Source: Natrinema pellirubrum DSM 15624 (lineage in GTDB: Archaea; Halobacteriota; Halobacteria; Halobacteriales; Natrialbaceae). From it: 64,000 bases of DNA. The notes below the pieces were generated by a model, which was given only the letters and a program-made list of their open reading frames with translations, ran no database searches and was not told where the DNA came from. The stretch is taken from contig NC_019962.1 in the NCBI RefSeq assembly GCF_000230735.2, positions 1,054,001 through 1,118,000 of the forward strand, in the 5' to 3' direction. Position numbers and translations under genes: made by a program. Within the stretch, counting starts at the first letter, position 1. Each line of letters opens with the position of its first letter. Below are positions 22,263 to 31,394 of the stretch, in pieces.

Positions 22263-24770
22263 CTACGAGATCGACGCGGGCGGGCGGCGCTCGTCGCGGT
22301 CCTCGTCCGCGAGGTCGGAGCGGTAGTCGGCGCTGCCCTCGTCCAGCAGCGAATCGATCACGTCCCGCGCGGCGGGGCCGTACAGGGGCCGGTTGTCGTT
22401 CCCACAGCGGTCGCTCATGAGACAGGCGGGACAGCCCTCGTCGCGACCGCAGTCGCAGTCGACCCAGAGATCGCGGGCCCGCCGTGCGACCGCCTCGTAC
22501 TCCTCGTAGATGCGCCGGGAAAAGCCCAGCCCGCCCTCGATCCCGTCGTAGATGAACCAGCCGCTCGCGTCGGTTCCGTCGGGGAGCCGGTTGGTCGCGA
22601 GCCCCCCGAGGTCCGCCGCGTCGACGGTCAACTCGAGCGGGGCCACGGCGATCATCGCGTGTTCGACGGCGTGGATCCCCCCGAGATAGCCGTGGAGCCG
22701 CGGGGGCAACTCCTCGCACTCGTCGTTGTGATAGTCGCTGTGGGCGGCCGTCACCGCCCGTTCCACGTCTGCGGGGACTTCGGCCCAGCACAGTTGGGTA
22801 CGCATCTCCAGGGGTGGAACGCCGGTCTCGAGGCCGACCGTACGGACGTCGCCCGACTCGAGGTCGCGTTTCAGGAACGTCTCGTGGTGGACCGTGACCG
22901 TCCCGTACCCCCAGTTGAGCCGGAAGTCCCCAATGTCGCGGGATTCCCGGATCTCCGTGTCGTAGATCGTTGTCCGACGCTGGGATTGGGTGTAGTAGTC
23001 GAGGTCGGCTGCTTCGAGTTCCACGTACGGCTGGGGGCGGTCCTCGCGGAGTTCGACCACCTCGTACTGGTCGCCCCGATACAGCACCGTCGCGCCCTCG
23101 TGATAGTCCCGATACGCGCGTGCGCGGCCGATCGGCTGATGGTCGATCGAGCCCTCGCCGGCCAGTCGGACCTCGAAGGAATCCCCGCCCGAGGCGTAGA
23201 GGCTGATCTCGTCCTGTGGTCGGTCGCGGTGGGCGTAGGTGATCCCGCCCGCGAGCGAGCCCTCGAACTCCCCCGTCCGGCGGCCGTACTCGACAGCTTG
23301 CTCGAGCCGATCGCGCCCGCCGAAGCGGGCCGCGTCCTCGCGGCGCAGGGGCAGTTCCTGAGCCGCACAGCGCAGGTGCTGCAGGTAGACGGGGTTGTTC
23401 TCGAGGTCGACGACGGCGCTCTCGGGTTCCTCCTCGAGCAGGTATTCGGGGTGGTTGAGGACGTACTGATCGAGCGTCGAGTGACTCGGGACGAACACCG
23501 ACAGGGCCTCGCGCTCGCCCCGTCCCGACCGGCCGATCCGCTGCCAGAACGACTGTCTCGAGCCGGGATACCCCAACAGAACGGTGCCGTCGATCCCGCC
23601 GACGTCGATGCCGACCTCGAGCGCGCTGGTCGTCGCGACGCCGTCGAGGTTACCGCTCTTGAGGCGGTTTTCGGTGCTTCGCCGCGATCGTTTGCCGTGG
23701 CCGGCGTTGTACGCCGCGAGGTCGGCGCTACCGCTGTAGGGAAGCGACGGCGTCTCGAGGAACTCCTGTGCGCGGCCAACGGCGAGTTCCGTCCCCTTCC
23801 GCGAGTCACAGAACAGCAGCGAGGGAACGCCGTGATAACAGCAGTGGGCCCACACCTCGGGGGCTTCGACGGTGGCGGGTCGTTTGCTCGGCCGCCAGTC
23901 GTCCCCGTCGCCGCCCTCGCCCGCGTCGCCATCGGTCGGCGGGTCCCAGAAGACGAGGTGGCGGCGGCCGCTCGGGGAGCCGTCCTCGTCGATCACCGTC
24001 GCCGGCTCGCCGGTCAGCGCCTCGGCGTGGTCGGCCGGGTTGCCGATCGTTGCGCTCGTCAGGACGTACTGGGGGTCGCCGCCGTACCATTCGATCACCC
24101 GCTGGGCCCGCCGAAGGATCCAGGCGGCGTGCATCCCGCTGATCCCGGTCCACGCGTGGGCCTCGTCGACGACGAGTAGGTCGCAGCCCGCGTGAAACGC
24201 AGCCCAGCGGTGGTGGCCCTCGAGGTACTGATTCAACCCTGCAAAGTTCGTGATGACGACGTTCGCCTCCTCGCGGATGCGGGACTTCTCCCGGCGTTTG
24301 GTGTCGCCGTCGTAGACGCCGACCGTGACGTCAAGTCCGAGGTCGTCGAACAGGTCGTTGAGTTCCCGCTCCTGATCGCGGCTGAGTGCCTTCGTCGGGT
24401 AAACCAGCAGCGCACGCACATCGGGATTCTCGCGGAACCGCCGTGCGATCTCCAGCGCGTAGACGTAGGTCTTCCCCGAGGACGTCGAAGTCGTGACACA
24501 GACGTTCTCGCCGCGCTCGAGCGCCGCGAGCGCGTTGGCCTGATGACTCCAAGGATCGACGGCGAGCTTTGCGGCGAGGTCGGGCGGCAGTACCTCCCTC
24601 GCGGGGACGTGATCGGCGGATTCGGCCGGCAGTATGAACCGTTCGCGGCACTGTCCGCCGTAGCGGGCGTCGGGATACGTCTCGCGGAGTTCCTCGGCGG
24701 TGAGCGCGAGGCCGTCCGAGCCGGTGTCGTCTTGGCCGTCGATCGGTCCGTCGGAGTCTTGCGGTCGCAT
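22263..24770 (-). CDS. DEAD/DEAH-box helicase, MrfA/Hrq1-like
   Basis: An 835-residue superfamily 2 helicase. Walker A TTSTSSGKT is at residues 93-101, with DEAH in LLVVDEAHAWTG and SAT in YVLTSATIGNP. Motif VI is QRIGRSGRGER. The C-terminal MZB-type (DUF1998) domain has a four-Cys cluster, CDCG...GCPACLMSDRCG near residue 790. This layout matches MrfA (YprA) of Bacillus and fungal Hrq1, which unwind DNA 3'-5' in repair of crosslinks and mitomycin damage. The start is the ATG at 24770, which falls one base after the upstream gene's stop, so the two are translationally coupled. Confidence 0.9.
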   Translation of the reverse strand: MRPQDSDGPIDGQDDTGSDGLALTAEELRETYPDARYGGQCRERFILPAESADHVPAREVLPPDLAAKLAVDPWSHQANALAALERGENVCVTTSTSSGKTYVYALEIARRFRENPDVRALLVYPTKALSRDQERELNDLFDDLGLDVTVGVYDGDTKRREKSRIREEANVVITNFAGLNQYLEGHHRWAAFHAGCDLLVVDEAHAWTGISGMHAAWILRRAQRVIEWYGGDPQYVLTSATIGNPADHAEALTGEPATVIDEDGSPSGRRHLVFWDPPTDGDAGEGGDGDDWRPSKRPATVEAPEVWAHCCYHGVPSLLFCDSRKGTELAVGRAQEFLETPSLPYSGSADLAAYNAGHGKRSRRSTENRLKSGNLDGVATTSALEVGIDVGGIDGTVLLGYPGSRQSFWQRIGRSGRGEREALSVFVPSHSTLDQYVLNHPEYLLEEEPESAVVDLENNPVYLQHLRCAAQELPLRREDAARFGGRDRLEQAVEYGRRTGEFEGSLAGGITYAHRDRPQDEISLYASGGDSFEVRLAGEGSIDHQPIGRARAYRDYHEGATVLYRGDQYEVVELREDRPQPYVELEAADLDYYTQSQRRTTIYDTEIRESRDIGDFRLNWGYGTVTVHHETFLKRDLESGDVRTVGLETGVPPLEMRTQLCWAEVPADVERAVTAAHSDYHNDECEELPPRLHGYLGGIHAVEHAMIAVAPLELTVDAADLGGLATNRLPDGTDASGWFIYDGIEGGLGFSRRIYEEYEAVARRARDLWVDCDCGRDEGCPACLMSDRCGNDNRPLYGPAARDVIDSLLDEGSADYRSDLADEDRDERRPPASIS

Positions 24771-24771
24771 A

Positions 24772-26241
24772 CTAGAAATCAGTGAGTCCGGTCTGTGTCG
24801 GTTCCGCCGTGGATCCGTCCGCTTGCTCTCCCGGTGATGCAGTCTCGGTCGGGGCCGCCGCGATCGCCTCGTAGACCGCGGCCAGTTCGCGAACGTCCGC
24901 CTCGCAGTACCGGCGGGCGGCCGTCCAGTCGATGGTCGCCTCCTCCGATCCGGATCCCCCGTCCGCACTACTCGAGCCCTCGAGCAGCCGCCGGAGCCGC
25001 TCGGCGAGCGTCTTGCCGTCGAGCGCGGCCGCGGCCCCCGTTCGGTCCCGGCCCAGTGCGGCGGCTACGTCCTCGAGCCGGTTCGTTCGGCCCGGCAGGA
25101 CGGCATTGTCCCGGCGGACCGCCCAGTCGTAGGGATCGTACGTCGAAACGTGATCGTGCCAGTACGCGCGGTACTCGGGCGCGTAGCGGGCGATAAAGCG
25201 CTCGAGGTGTTCGTAATCGAACCCGTGGCCGTTCCACGCGACCAGCGAGGGGGCATCGTACTCGGCGGCCAGCCACGAGACGAACTCGCGGGTCGCTTGT
25301 CCGGGGTCCTCGCGGGACGGCTCGGTATCGACGAAGTCGACGTACGCTTCTCGGTTGGGATCGTAGACGCCGATCAACCAGACGATCGTCGGCCGGAGCC
25401 CGTCGGTTTCGATGTCGACGAACAGCGGGGTCGCGTCGCCGGTCGGCGGGAGTGGCTCCGCCGTCGTCCGGACGACACGGCCGTCGGCGAGCGCTCGCGC
25501 GCTGTGGACGATCTTGCGGGCCGTCGACGGGCCGATCCCATCGATCGAGGACAGTTCCGTCGCGGACGCCGCGGCGACGGCCGCGCGCGTCTCGTAGCCG
25601 TTCTCTCGGAGCCGCCGGGCTATCGTCGGACCGACGCCCGACAGCGCCCCCAGTCCGAACCTGTCGGCCGGGACCGACGACACCGCGATCGAGCCGGTTC
25701 GACCGCAGGTGAGGCAGGCGAGTTCGGCCGCCCCCGACCGTTCCAGCGGAGCGACCCCGCGGATCGGCAACCGGACCGGCTCACCGTTGACCGTCGTTTC
25801 CCAGACGTGGTCGTAGCTCGCTGTGAGCGCGCCGGTTAGAAACGTCGTCTCTCGGTTCGAGCGAGCGCGGTAGCGGCCGATCGCCTCGCGGCCGGCGAGC
25901 GTTGCCTCGAGCGCGACGGCGTCGGTCGTCGGCTCGAGGTCGTCACAGACGACGTAGTCGGCGGGTGGCGCATCCGCCAGCAGGGACGCTGACGATGCGA
26001 AGACGAACGAGGTCCCCGCGACGGTTTCGGTCCGGCTCTCCGCGGGGCCGACAGCGGCGACGACGGGACAGTCGGCGGCCCGTCGGACCCGGCTCACGAC
26101 GCGGACGTCCGACGACTCCCGAACGACGTAGACGAGGTCCGGACCGAAGTACGCGAGGGCGTCGCGGACCGCCGCCTGGTCCAGGTCGGCGACGGCGTTA
26201 CAGCGGAGCGCAAGCAGATCCGCCCCCTCGTCGTCGGGCAT
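24772..26241 (-). CDS. Helix-hairpin-helix plus RNase H-like exonuclease, MrfB/YprB-like
   Basis: A 489-residue protein. Residues 1-165 form an alpha/beta domain I do not recognise, followed by one CLTC pair (176-179). Two helix-hairpin-helix motifs follow, GALSGVGPTIARRL near 198 and SIDGIGPSTARKIV near 232. The RNase H-like nuclease domain starts at 272: DIETD (276-280) supplies the first DEDD acids, WNGHGFDYEHLERF is near 336 and YCEADV near 446. This matches YprB/MrfB, partner of MrfA. The start is the ATG at 26241; an upstream in-frame ATG would add only a few residues. It is the first gene of the pair. Confidence 0.85.
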   Translation of the reverse strand: MPDDEGADLLALRCNAVADLDQAAVRDALAYFGPDLVYVVRESSDVRVVSRVRRAADCPVVAAVGPAESRTETVAGTSFVFASSASLLADAPPADYVVCDDLEPTTDAVALEATLAGREAIGRYRARSNRETTFLTGALTASYDHVWETTVNGEPVRLPIRGVAPLERSGAAELACLTCGRTGSIAVSSVPADRFGLGALSGVGPTIARRLRENGYETRAAVAAASATELSSIDGIGPSTARKIVHSARALADGRVVRTTAEPLPPTGDATPLFVDIETDGLRPTIVWLIGVYDPNREAYVDFVDTEPSREDPGQATREFVSWLAAEYDAPSLVAWNGHGFDYEHLERFIARYAPEYRAYWHDHVSTYDPYDWAVRRDNAVLPGRTNRLEDVAAALGRDRTGAAAALDGKTLAERLRRLLEGSSSADGGSGSEEATIDWTAARRYCEADVRELAAVYEAIAAAPTETASPGEQADGSTAEPTQTGLTDF

Positions 26242-26305: not shown

Positions 26306-26656
26306 TCAGTCGGCGTCGACTGCTTCGGGAACGTTCGACTCGAGGAAGTCGGTGACTGCATCGCCGCCCTGGAATCCGTCGGCCAGTCGTGCGGTCTCCT
26401 CGCCGTCCTCGAACAGGATTAGAGTCGGTACCGATCGGATATCGAACCGATCGACGAGGCCGATGTCGTCGCCGGGATTGACCATCCCGATCGAGACATC
26501 GGTTGCGCGAGCGACGTTGCCGAGGACCGGTTCCATCGCCTGACACAGCGCACAGCCGCTCGTGTAGAACTCCACGAGCGCGACGTCGTGACTCGCCACG
26601 AACTCGTCTACGTCGTCGCCGGTCTCGAGCTGACGCGGTTTACTGGTCACGGCCAT
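26306..26656 (-). CDS. Thioredoxin-family protein
   Basis: A 116-residue thioredoxin fold. The redox site CALC lies in EFYTSGCALCQAME near residue 34 (usual CGPC replaced), and the cis-proline loop is RSVPTLILFEDGEE near residue 75. It most likely reduces protein disulfides or takes part in redox signalling; the altered CxxC would change its potential. It lies 64 bp upstream of the MrfB-like gene on the same strand and could be co-transcribed, though a separate promoter is equally likely. Confidence 0.88.
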   Translation of the reverse strand: MAVTSKPRQLETGDDVDEFVASHDVALVEFYTSGCALCQAMEPVLGNVARATDVSIGMVNPGDDIGLVDRFDIRSVPTLILFEDGEETARLADGFQGGDAVTDFLESNVPEAVDAD

Positions 26657-30563: not shown

Positions 30564-31394
30564 TCAGACCGACTCGTAGGGACCGAGCCGGGTCCCGTCG
30601 AGCAGGTACGCCTCGCCGTCGGCCAGCCCCGCGGGAAGGAACGGCGAGAGAAACGACTGGCCGGCGACGTTGGTCCACGTCCCGCCGACCAGTTCGTTGA
30701 ACGCGGGGATCACGACGGCTCGCGGCGGCTCGGCCGCCCCCTCGAGCCACGACACGCCCTCGTATTCCGACCGGTCGCGAAACGGGTCGGGGGCGAGTCG
30801 CCCCCGCAGCCACGCTCGCTCGACGCGGCTCCCGCCGACCTCGTCCTCGAGTCTGACACAGGGGTGTTCGTGTCCCAGACAGACCACGTCGCTCTCGAGG
30901 ACGGCCCGCGAGGGCCAGGTGTGGCCGTGACAGACGCCGACGTCGCCGATGGCGACGCCCGCGCCGGCGACGATCTCGACCGTCGCAGCGACGTCGTCGC
31001 TCTCGCCGAGCCACGTCTCGATCCGTCCGTCGTGGTTGCCCTTGACGACGGTGACAGCGAGGTCGCTCGGGAACGACTCGAACAGCACCTCGAGTTCGCC
31101 GCGTTCGGCCCCGCCCGGCTCGCCGATCGAGTGCATCAGGTCGCCACAGATGACCAGTCGATCGGGTCGAGTCCGCTCGACCAGGGCAGCGAGACGCTCC
31201 CGGCGGTCCGGGGCCTGACTGGGGACGTCGACACCGCGCTCGTACCGCAACGCCGCCTCGTAGCCGGCGTGGTAGTCGGCAACGAGCAGGGCCCGCTCGC
31301 TGCCGATCGTCGCGGTCGCGGCCGGTTCGTTGGGGACGGGTTCGACGAGCGGTCGGGCCGTCGACCCCGAGCCGCGGCGGGGATCGTCACGCAT
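30564..31394 (-). CDS. rpe: RPA-associated metallophosphoesterase Rpe
   Basis: A 276-residue calcineurin-like phosphoesterase with all metal-binding blocks: DYHAG near residue 40, GDLMH near 87, VVKGNHDGRIE near 115, CHGH near 155 and LGHEHP near 173. It is the third gene of the rpa cluster, 10 bp after rpap. In Haloferax volcanii the rpa1 operon has the same order (rpa1, rpap1, rpe), from established work on haloarchaeal RPAs. Its substrate (nucleic acid or nucleotide) is not known from sequence. Confidence 0.88.
   Translation of the reverse strand: MRDDPRRGSGSTARPLVEPVPNEPAATATIGSERALLVADYHAGYEAALRYERGVDVPSQAPDRRERLAALVERTRPDRLVICGDLMHSIGEPGGAERGELEVLFESFPSDLAVTVVKGNHDGRIETWLGESDDVAATVEIVAGAGVAIGDVGVCHGHTWPSRAVLESDVVCLGHEHPCVRLEDEVGGSRVERAWLRGRLAPDPFRDRSEYEGVSWLEGAAEPPRAVVIPAFNELVGGTWTNVAGQSFLSPFLPAGLADGEAYLLDGTRLGPYESV

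Follow-up and report, generated by a model that had tools for sequence, protein, structure and literature searches.

A YprA/MrfA-family helicase of Halobacteria is encoded with a DEDDy exonuclease that ends in a PIP-type motif

Introduction

In Bacillus subtilis the YprA-family helicase MrfA (YprA), which carries winged-helix (WHD) and MZB zinc-binding domains, is encoded beside MrfB (YprB), an RNase_H_2-type DEDD exonuclease, with the helicase gene first. The catalytic residues of MrfB are D107, E109, D172 and D262 together with H258, and its unstructured N-terminus has been modelled around the winged helix of MrfA (PMC11194089). YprA helicases associated with MrfB have already been reported as widespread (Bell et al. 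2025, preprint, PMC12458937). Here we describe a gene pair from the haloarchaeon Natrinema pellirubrum DSM 15624, located in a 64,000-nucleotide stretch of contig NC_019962.1 (positions 1,054,001 to 1,118,000, referred to below as the window). What distinguishes it from the Bacillus pair is its nuclease, which has a tyrosine in the active site (DEDDy type) and a tail ending in a PCNA-interacting peptide (PIP) motif.

PIP boxes are normally placed at the extreme N- or C-terminus of a protein (PMC2737543), and PCNA binding by Pyrococcus Hjm/Hel308 depends on a C-terminal PIP box (PMC2636818). In Haloferax, NreA without its PIP motif no longer supports mitomycin C repair and the cells are mitomycin C-sensitive (PMC4929162); Hel308 mutants are also sensitive to mitomycin C (PMC7776575, cited there as unpublished data). 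In a search of the open-access literature, subscription papers lying outside its scope, no account of the haloarchaeal pair or of its PIP motif appeared in the titles and abstract openings among the matches listed.

Results

The nuclease and its helicase occur only together in Halobacteria

Both genes lie on the minus strand of the window and are transcribed in the order nuclease, then helicase (Table 1). A single base (24771) separates the helicase ATG (24768-24770) from the nuclease stop codon (24772-24774), so the two open reading frames, their coordinates and the one-base gap are as given in a preliminary description made from the letters of the window. The pair sits on a 3.79-Mb contig of a 4.35-Mb genome. 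Its nearest named record is from Natrinema thermotolerans (95% protein identity, in a comparison from which the source genome itself may be missing).

Among the matches listed for 194 Halobacteria genomes, the nuclease and the helicase clade of its partner were found only together, at 80 of 80 loci in 72 genomes. At each of the 80 loci the two frames could be retrieved, with the helicase gene immediately following the nuclease gene in the same orientation, and no helicase of the set stands without a nuclease; the pairing is thus not due to chance. The loci were defined by bit-score lines chosen after the lists had been viewed. The nuclease line was at least 141 bits (next match 43.5). The helicase line of at least 387 bits gave 81 hits, two of which were pieces of one gene and were counted once. 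The lowest helicase scores (387-438) are partial alignments adjoining a class of solo haloarchaeal YprA helicases (384 and below); when whole frames were scored, all 80 helicases reached 680 bits. Pairwise identities of the nuclease and the helicase correlate across loci (r 0.97), and the nearest neighbour is the same for both proteins in 57 of the 80. Within the family to which the window belongs, 40 of 49 genomes carry the pair, and in the other nine no helicase match reached E<=1e-60 (hand count).

The nuclease ends in a conserved PIP-type motif

All 80 nucleases contain the sequence Q-x-x-L-x-[D/E]-[F/W/Y] within two residues of the C-terminus. This PIP-type end is a telling feature of the pair, and it is absent from the preliminary description. 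The looser pattern Q-x-x-[LIMV]-x-x-[FWY], at most three residues from the end, was found in none of the 80 helicases and in 10 of 2148 other open frames, many of which are not genes. The [D/E] form, at most two residues from the end, was present in five of 1022 filtered frames, four of them plasmid copies of the paired nuclease. When five stretches of the protein were compared in the 69 nuclease rows left after thinning at 90%, the last seven residues had the highest mean pairwise identity (0.70) and the 20 residues preceding the motif had the lowest (0.18). In the 80 nucleases, 27 to 75 residues (median 33) separate the last catalytic motif from the Q of the PIP-type motif.

A DNA pattern for QxxLx[DE]F followed by a stop codon (Leu as CTN) occurs twice in the whole genome, once in the nuclease gene and once in the gene for a Hel308-type helicase (Helicase_dom4_arc 133 bits, HHH_5); the reversed pattern was seen a single time. 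The FEN1 encoded in the same genome has the C-terminus TQTGLDRWT, as against TQTGLTDF in the nuclease, and its NreA ends in QANLSAFSSRT. The nuclease very probably binds PCNA through its C-terminal motif.

A separate frame beside one of the pairs (L115, 1838-3032, minus strand) likewise has a PIP-type end, QLSLGDF.

The nuclease has a DEDDy core and is not supported as MrfB

Residues 199-249 of the nuclease match the HHH_5 family at 49.8 bits, above the gathering score, and this helix-hairpin-helix (HhH) region resembles the N-terminal domain of RadA. RadA models cover residues 197-256, with sequence matches to 1pzn and 2f1h, and Foldseek aligned the modelled HhH with 2f1h at probability 1.00 and E 3.2e-3 (0.8 Å over 54 columns). 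In the RNase_H_2 domain that follows, the four DEDD acids are D276, E278, D342 and D449. The preliminary description had allowed for an inactive nuclease lacking some of these acids; because none of the 80 nucleases lacks any of the four, that objection does not apply. The fifth catalytic position, four residues before the last aspartate, is tyrosine (Y445) in all 80. The leucine at the wedge position (L282, corresponding to L113 in MrfB) is kept in 79 of 80.

The most direct alternative is that the genes are an ordinary MrfAB orthologue, merely diverged from the Bacillus pair and excising mitomycin C damage. The overall composition agrees with this proposal, since the locus combines a WHD- and MZB-containing helicase with an RNase_H_2 and HhH nuclease, the genes are linked, and the wedge leucine is retained. 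The active site does not agree: tyrosine is present in 80 of 80 haloarchaeal nucleases, whereas all 18 of the canonical archaeal MrfB proteins have histidine. The latter come from the 18 nuclease loci examined outside Halobacteria (L169-L186), which were hand-picked from the search list for coverage of the RNase H part and are all of the canonical MrfB type. At 13 of the 18, MrfA lies directly downstream. Like the haloarchaeal pairs, these pairs from the same phylum have the nuclease first and the helicase second; unlike the haloarchaeal nuclease, the canonical proteins are DEDDh enzymes in frames of 339-400 amino acids, the profile match to them begins only at the HhH, and none of the 18 has a PIP motif. 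One canonical MrfB-MrfA pair (L163:4906-8337) is on a contig catalogued as viral (IMGVR_UViG_3300031707_006565).

Sequence searches also separate the haloarchaeal nuclease from MrfB. B. subtilis MrfB has a C-terminal tetratricopeptide repeat (TPR) domain, and a Pfam scan at E<=1 found no TPR family in the haloarchaeal protein. In a phmmer search of structure chains with the window nuclease, 23 chains were matched at E<=1 and MrfB (8un9) was not among them; as a positive control, a canonical methanogen-type archaeal MrfB (L134) found 8un9 at E 4.7e-22. With a nuclease profile of 41 sequences, MrfB was absent from the best 60 of 102 matches, which are of the HhH type. Further differences from the Bacillus pair are the 195-residue N-terminal domain, the RadA-type HhH, the PIP tail and the position of the nuclease gene ahead of the helicase gene.

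In a nuclease tree of 40 rows, which drew long-branch warnings, the haloarchaeal nucleases group with two phosphoesterase-HhH-RNase_H_2 proteins (Shimodaira-Hasegawa-like approximate likelihood ratio test, SH-aLRT, 93) and canonical MrfB groups with B. subtilis MrfB (SH-aLRT 90). Three canonical MrfB rows (L179, L181 and L163) were dropped from this tree on failing a simple motif search, and one row was 32% filled. Two observations soften the separation from MrfB. One of the two canonical archaeal MrfB proteins scanned has a weak HhH (15.9 bits, cut-off 27), and the tyrosine-type protein L154 falls on the MrfB side with the longest end branch in the tree, which speaks against a clean split of the family into tyrosine and histidine types. 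L154 (G000:C1:2466842-2467291) is the second, solo RNase_H_2 protein of the genome; it scores 143.9 bits, contains YNRAD, and has an HhH as read by eye.

Taken together, the tests run do not support the nuclease as an MrfB orthologue, and we regard the orthologue explanation as unlikely. The preliminary description had proposed an MrfA/MrfB-like pair. A YprA/MrfA helicase beside an HhH and RNase_H_2 nuclease is indeed present, but the identity with MrfB does not stand, given the tyrosine in place of His258, the TPR not found, the unmatched 8un9 and the placement on opposite sides of the tree at modest support. The proposal that the nuclease works in the manner of MrfB is retained; an identity with MrfB is not supported.

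Two other groups of proteins share parts of this architecture. The metallophosphoesterase-HhH-RNase_H_2 proteins L132 and L160, sisters of the haloarchaeal nuclease in the tree on long branches, have an HhH-type region and a DEDDy core, but their N-terminal domain can be identified as a calcineurin-like phosphoesterase (PF00149, 37.9 bits) and they are not paired with this helicase clade. Nucleases of the L132 type fall below the nuclease score line. Such phosphoesterase-RNase_H_2 fusions (L132:784-2226, plus strand; L160; L188) were matched in seven of the 194 genomes and are full length in five; in L188 there is also a truncated frame whose end is MZB-like and, upstream, a frame that appears RecB-like by eye. 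The TM0106-family RecB-like nuclease model (TIGR03491) has the same order of HhH and RNase_H_2 and aligns to nuclease residues 197-397, but the score, 38.1 bits, lies below the cut-off of 97.45, and the RecB-like domain was not found in the haloarchaeal nuclease.

The helicase resembles the repair branch of the YprA family

The DEAD, Helicase_C, WHD_HRQ1 and MZB domains of the helicase each score above their Pfam gathering cut-offs. The HQ, SGK, DExH, [ST]AT and GRxGR letters are invariant at all 80 loci, as are the MZB zinc cysteines Cys 772, 774, 780 and 783 (and also 789) in all 80 helicases. The 835-residue helicase with a four-cysteine MZB that had been read from the letters is borne out by these data. 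Its best solved relative is B. subtilis YprA/MrfA (6znp; 357 bits, E 1.8e-105, residues 68-787), and from these matches we assign it to the YprA/MrfA family.

Within that family the helicase is most like the repair branch, because TIGR03817 scores 514 bits (below its cut-off of 874) and MrfA 357, compared with at most 122.6 bits for any PADLOC model (SngC, residues 77-424; the PADLOC models were used here without a cut-off). The pair matched no specific PADLOC anti-phage system model; the nuclease matched only DEDDh, at E 0.0085. In a helicase tree of 52 rows, the paired haloarchaeal helicases form one clade (support 100) and the solo haloarchaeal YprA helicases form another (support 100). The solo proteins belong to the same helicase family (34-39% identity to P0001 among the matches listed), but no nuclease is present at any of their 13 fetched loci, where one weak match to the HhH alone was seen (L196).

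The N-terminal domain of the nuclease matches no family

The region before the HhH comprises about 195 residues rather than the 165 originally estimated, and its description as unrecognised was correct: Pfam returned no family for the window copy at E<=5, and a search of PDB sequences gave no match (best E 0.91). When 39 members of the domain were scanned against Pfam, 13 families matched one member each, the best at E 0.0019. The domain is common to the haloarchaeal set, with a mean pairwise identity of 0.29, and is under purifying selection; in a comparison of the window copy with four relatives of its genus, third codon positions change 1.8-3.7 times as often as first and second positions. 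The only residue of 1-195 that is invariant in 80 of 80 is G162, followed by L115, G183 and Y143 in 76-78. Among the acidic residues D27 is the best conserved (66 D, 2 E and 11 gaps), histidine and asparagine stay below 70% at every position, and the CxxC seen in the window copy is not kept across loci.

Folding of the domain followed by a structure search, the check proposed earlier, yielded AlphaFold2 models of low confidence. Foldseek with the first model gave no match at E<=0.001, and its hits other than the HhH were scattered over Rossmann-type and other folds. Homologues sought on viral contigs for the folding included none with the haloarchaeal architecture.

A degenerate calcineurin-like phosphoesterase was considered on the basis of L132 and of the succession of secondary-structure elements in the weak model, compared with known phosphoesterase topology. 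In hhalign profile comparisons P was 0.32 and 0.41, as against 7e-6 for the positive control of L132 with phosphoesterases, and 20 of 37 other clusters scored equally or higher, one being the nuclease itself. The catalytic Asp/His/Asn set is not conserved in residues 1-195, and the phosphoesterase is kept as a lead only. A RecB-like N-terminal domain as in TM0106 was without Pfam support and was set aside.

Plasmid copies and neighbouring genes

The nuclease was present in 36 PLSDB plasmids, all typed non-mobilizable. Across the ten plasmid records inspected, only the members of one clade have neighbours in common; elsewhere the flanking genes vary, as would fit a self-contained pair. The clade with common neighbours comprises seven loci under three family codes, with nucleases 79-99% and helicases 90-99% identical, mostly on contigs of 72-159 kb and once on one of 526 kb. 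At L234:10471-19028 (a Halorussus salilacus plasmid), L238 and L239, the pair follows a second YprA-family helicase, which in L234, where it was scanned, is 819 amino acids long with an MZB of 80.5 bits. A ThiF protein lies upstream in L234 and L239 (JAB-like part 21.3 bits, below the cut-off of 25), and L238 and L239 contain a protein annotated as tyrosyl-DNA phosphodiesterase (Tdp1). In Halobacterium salinarum R1 the pair (OE_RS12870/OE_RS12865) is on plasmid PHS3 and is followed by a second small ribonuclease H-like gene (OE_RS12860; L235:15654-16298).

In the window, a thioredoxin-like gene with a CALC motif (26306-26656, minus strand) precedes the nuclease gene in the same orientation, with 64 bases between them, and a cluster of nine related frames was seen among the fetched loci. 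A metallophosphoesterase-like open reading frame with GNHD and GHEH motifs by eye (30564-31394, minus strand) is near the pair, with no link to it. An Rfam scan of the window gave no match reaching the gathering scores.

Table 1. Features of the nuclease-helicase pair (positions in the window)
Feature	Position	Strand	Remarks
Nuclease gene (N-terminal domain, HhH, RNase_H_2 DEDDy, tail, PIP-type motif)	24772..26241	-	489 aa (amino acids), first of pair
N-terminal domain	25657..26241	-	residues 1-195, without family match
Helix-hairpin-helix domain, RadA/Rad51 N-terminal type	25474..25653	-	residues 197-256
RNase_H_2 exonuclease domain	24862..25425	-	residues 273-460, Pfam 65.3 bits (cut-off 22)
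PIP-type PCNA-binding motif QTGLTDF (predicted)	24775..24795	-	residues 483-489, directly before stop codon
YprA/MrfA-family helicase gene	22263..24770	-	835 aa, second of pair
DEAD helicase domain	24042..24548	-	residues 75-243, Pfam
Helicase_C domain	23520..23822	-	residues 317-417, Pfam
WHD_HRQ1 winged-helix segment	23289..23411	-	residues 454-494, Pfam 31.5 bits (cut-off 27)
MZB zinc-binding domain	22419..22667	-	residues 702-784, Pfam 66 bits (cut-off 24.2)

Discussion

We favour, with some reserve, a model in which the pair excises bulky or cross-link damage as a helicase/3'-5' exonuclease module tethered to PCNA. By extrapolation from MrfA, the helicase would unwind DNA at a helix-blocking lesion, and the nuclease, to judge from its intact active site, would act as a two-metal DEDDy enzyme that degrades the damaged strand 3' to 5'. 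Homology suggests that the nuclease would be held on DNA through its RadA-type HhH domain; it would be held on the sliding clamp PCNA by the PIP motif that caps a tail about 30 residues long. Such a tether would direct excision to sites of PCNA loading (forks or repair patches) and would permit hand-over to polymerase, FEN1 and ligase. The N-terminal domain may dock the helicase, a guess made by analogy with the Bacillus MrfB N-terminus on MrfA (PMC11194089). The likeliest physiological substrate would be bulky adduct or cross-link damage. We liken this scheme to Haloferax NreA because mitomycin C repair by NreA requires its PIP motif; NreA and Hel308 have in common with the nuclease a C-terminal PIP motif, and their Haloferax mutants are mitomycin C-sensitive, but the enzymes are unrelated. 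A function of the pair in DNA repair in general is likely; a main role in mitomycin-type damage is a more tentative suggestion.

Several observations weigh against the clamp-tethered repair model. The textbook PIP box has two aromatic residues, and the nuclease motif holds one, as does that of FEN1 of the same genome. The two AlphaFold2 models of the N-terminal domain, built from 5 and 6 rows, have predicted local distance difference test (pLDDT) values of 44.7 and 40.1, which lends no support to a function of that domain. The paired helicase clade joins MrfA at an SH-aLRT of only 80, with a long stem and long branches, in the 52-row tree. MrfAB function appears species-specific in complementation (PMC12458937), so that mitomycin specificity need not carry over. 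Finally, the pair has a patchy spread (72 of 194 genomes) and is frequently carried on plasmids (36 PLSDB records), a pattern that would suit an accessory or defence role too.

That spread is one of the points in favour of a mobile defence or plasmid-maintenance module, which would attack foreign or rival replicons and use PCNA to find replicating DNA. Further points are the near-identical helicases of the seven-locus clade, found under three family codes mostly on small contigs, and the second YprA-family helicase that adjoins copies of this clade, accompanied in some of them by ThiF and the Tdp1-annotated protein. YprA relatives also run the DISARM, Dpd and Druantia systems (PMC12458937). 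In N. pellirubrum, however, the pair sits on the 3.79-Mb contig near frames that by eye encode a glutamine synthetase and an aminotransferase; outside the seven-locus clade the neighbours vary between the plasmids inspected; the closest helicase models are of the repair branch; and no match to the pair was found in 50,697 phage records. We consider a defence role improbable. Equally improbable is a replication-fork or Okazaki/flap maturation pair that works with PCNA and is not adduct-specific, for although PIP-type ends are common to FEN1 and Hel308 of the same genome and DEDDy exonucleases include polymerase proofreading domains (PMC11194089), the pair was not found in 122 of the 194 genomes, which replicate regardless.

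A broader interpretation, which we offer as a possibility somewhat short of even, is that the pair represents a second, archaeal design for lesion excision, in which a YprA helicase without MrfB is joined to a clamp-coupled DEDDy HhH exonuclease with a new N-terminal fold. On the same tentative footing, it would be a two-gene cassette spreading on chromosomes and plasmids, whose helicase lost or never had MrfB.

The earlier suggestion that helicase-exonuclease pairs of this kind span bacteria and archaea is supported, in keeping with the broad occurrence reported for MrfB-linked YprA helicases (PMC12458937). At the loci examined, archaeal pairs come in two forms, a canonical histidine type outside Halobacteria and a tyrosine type inside, and annotation by analogy with MrfB would therefore mislead. 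The explicit clamp-binding motif predicted in the haloarchaeal relative would make a role of the clamp in this repair directly testable.

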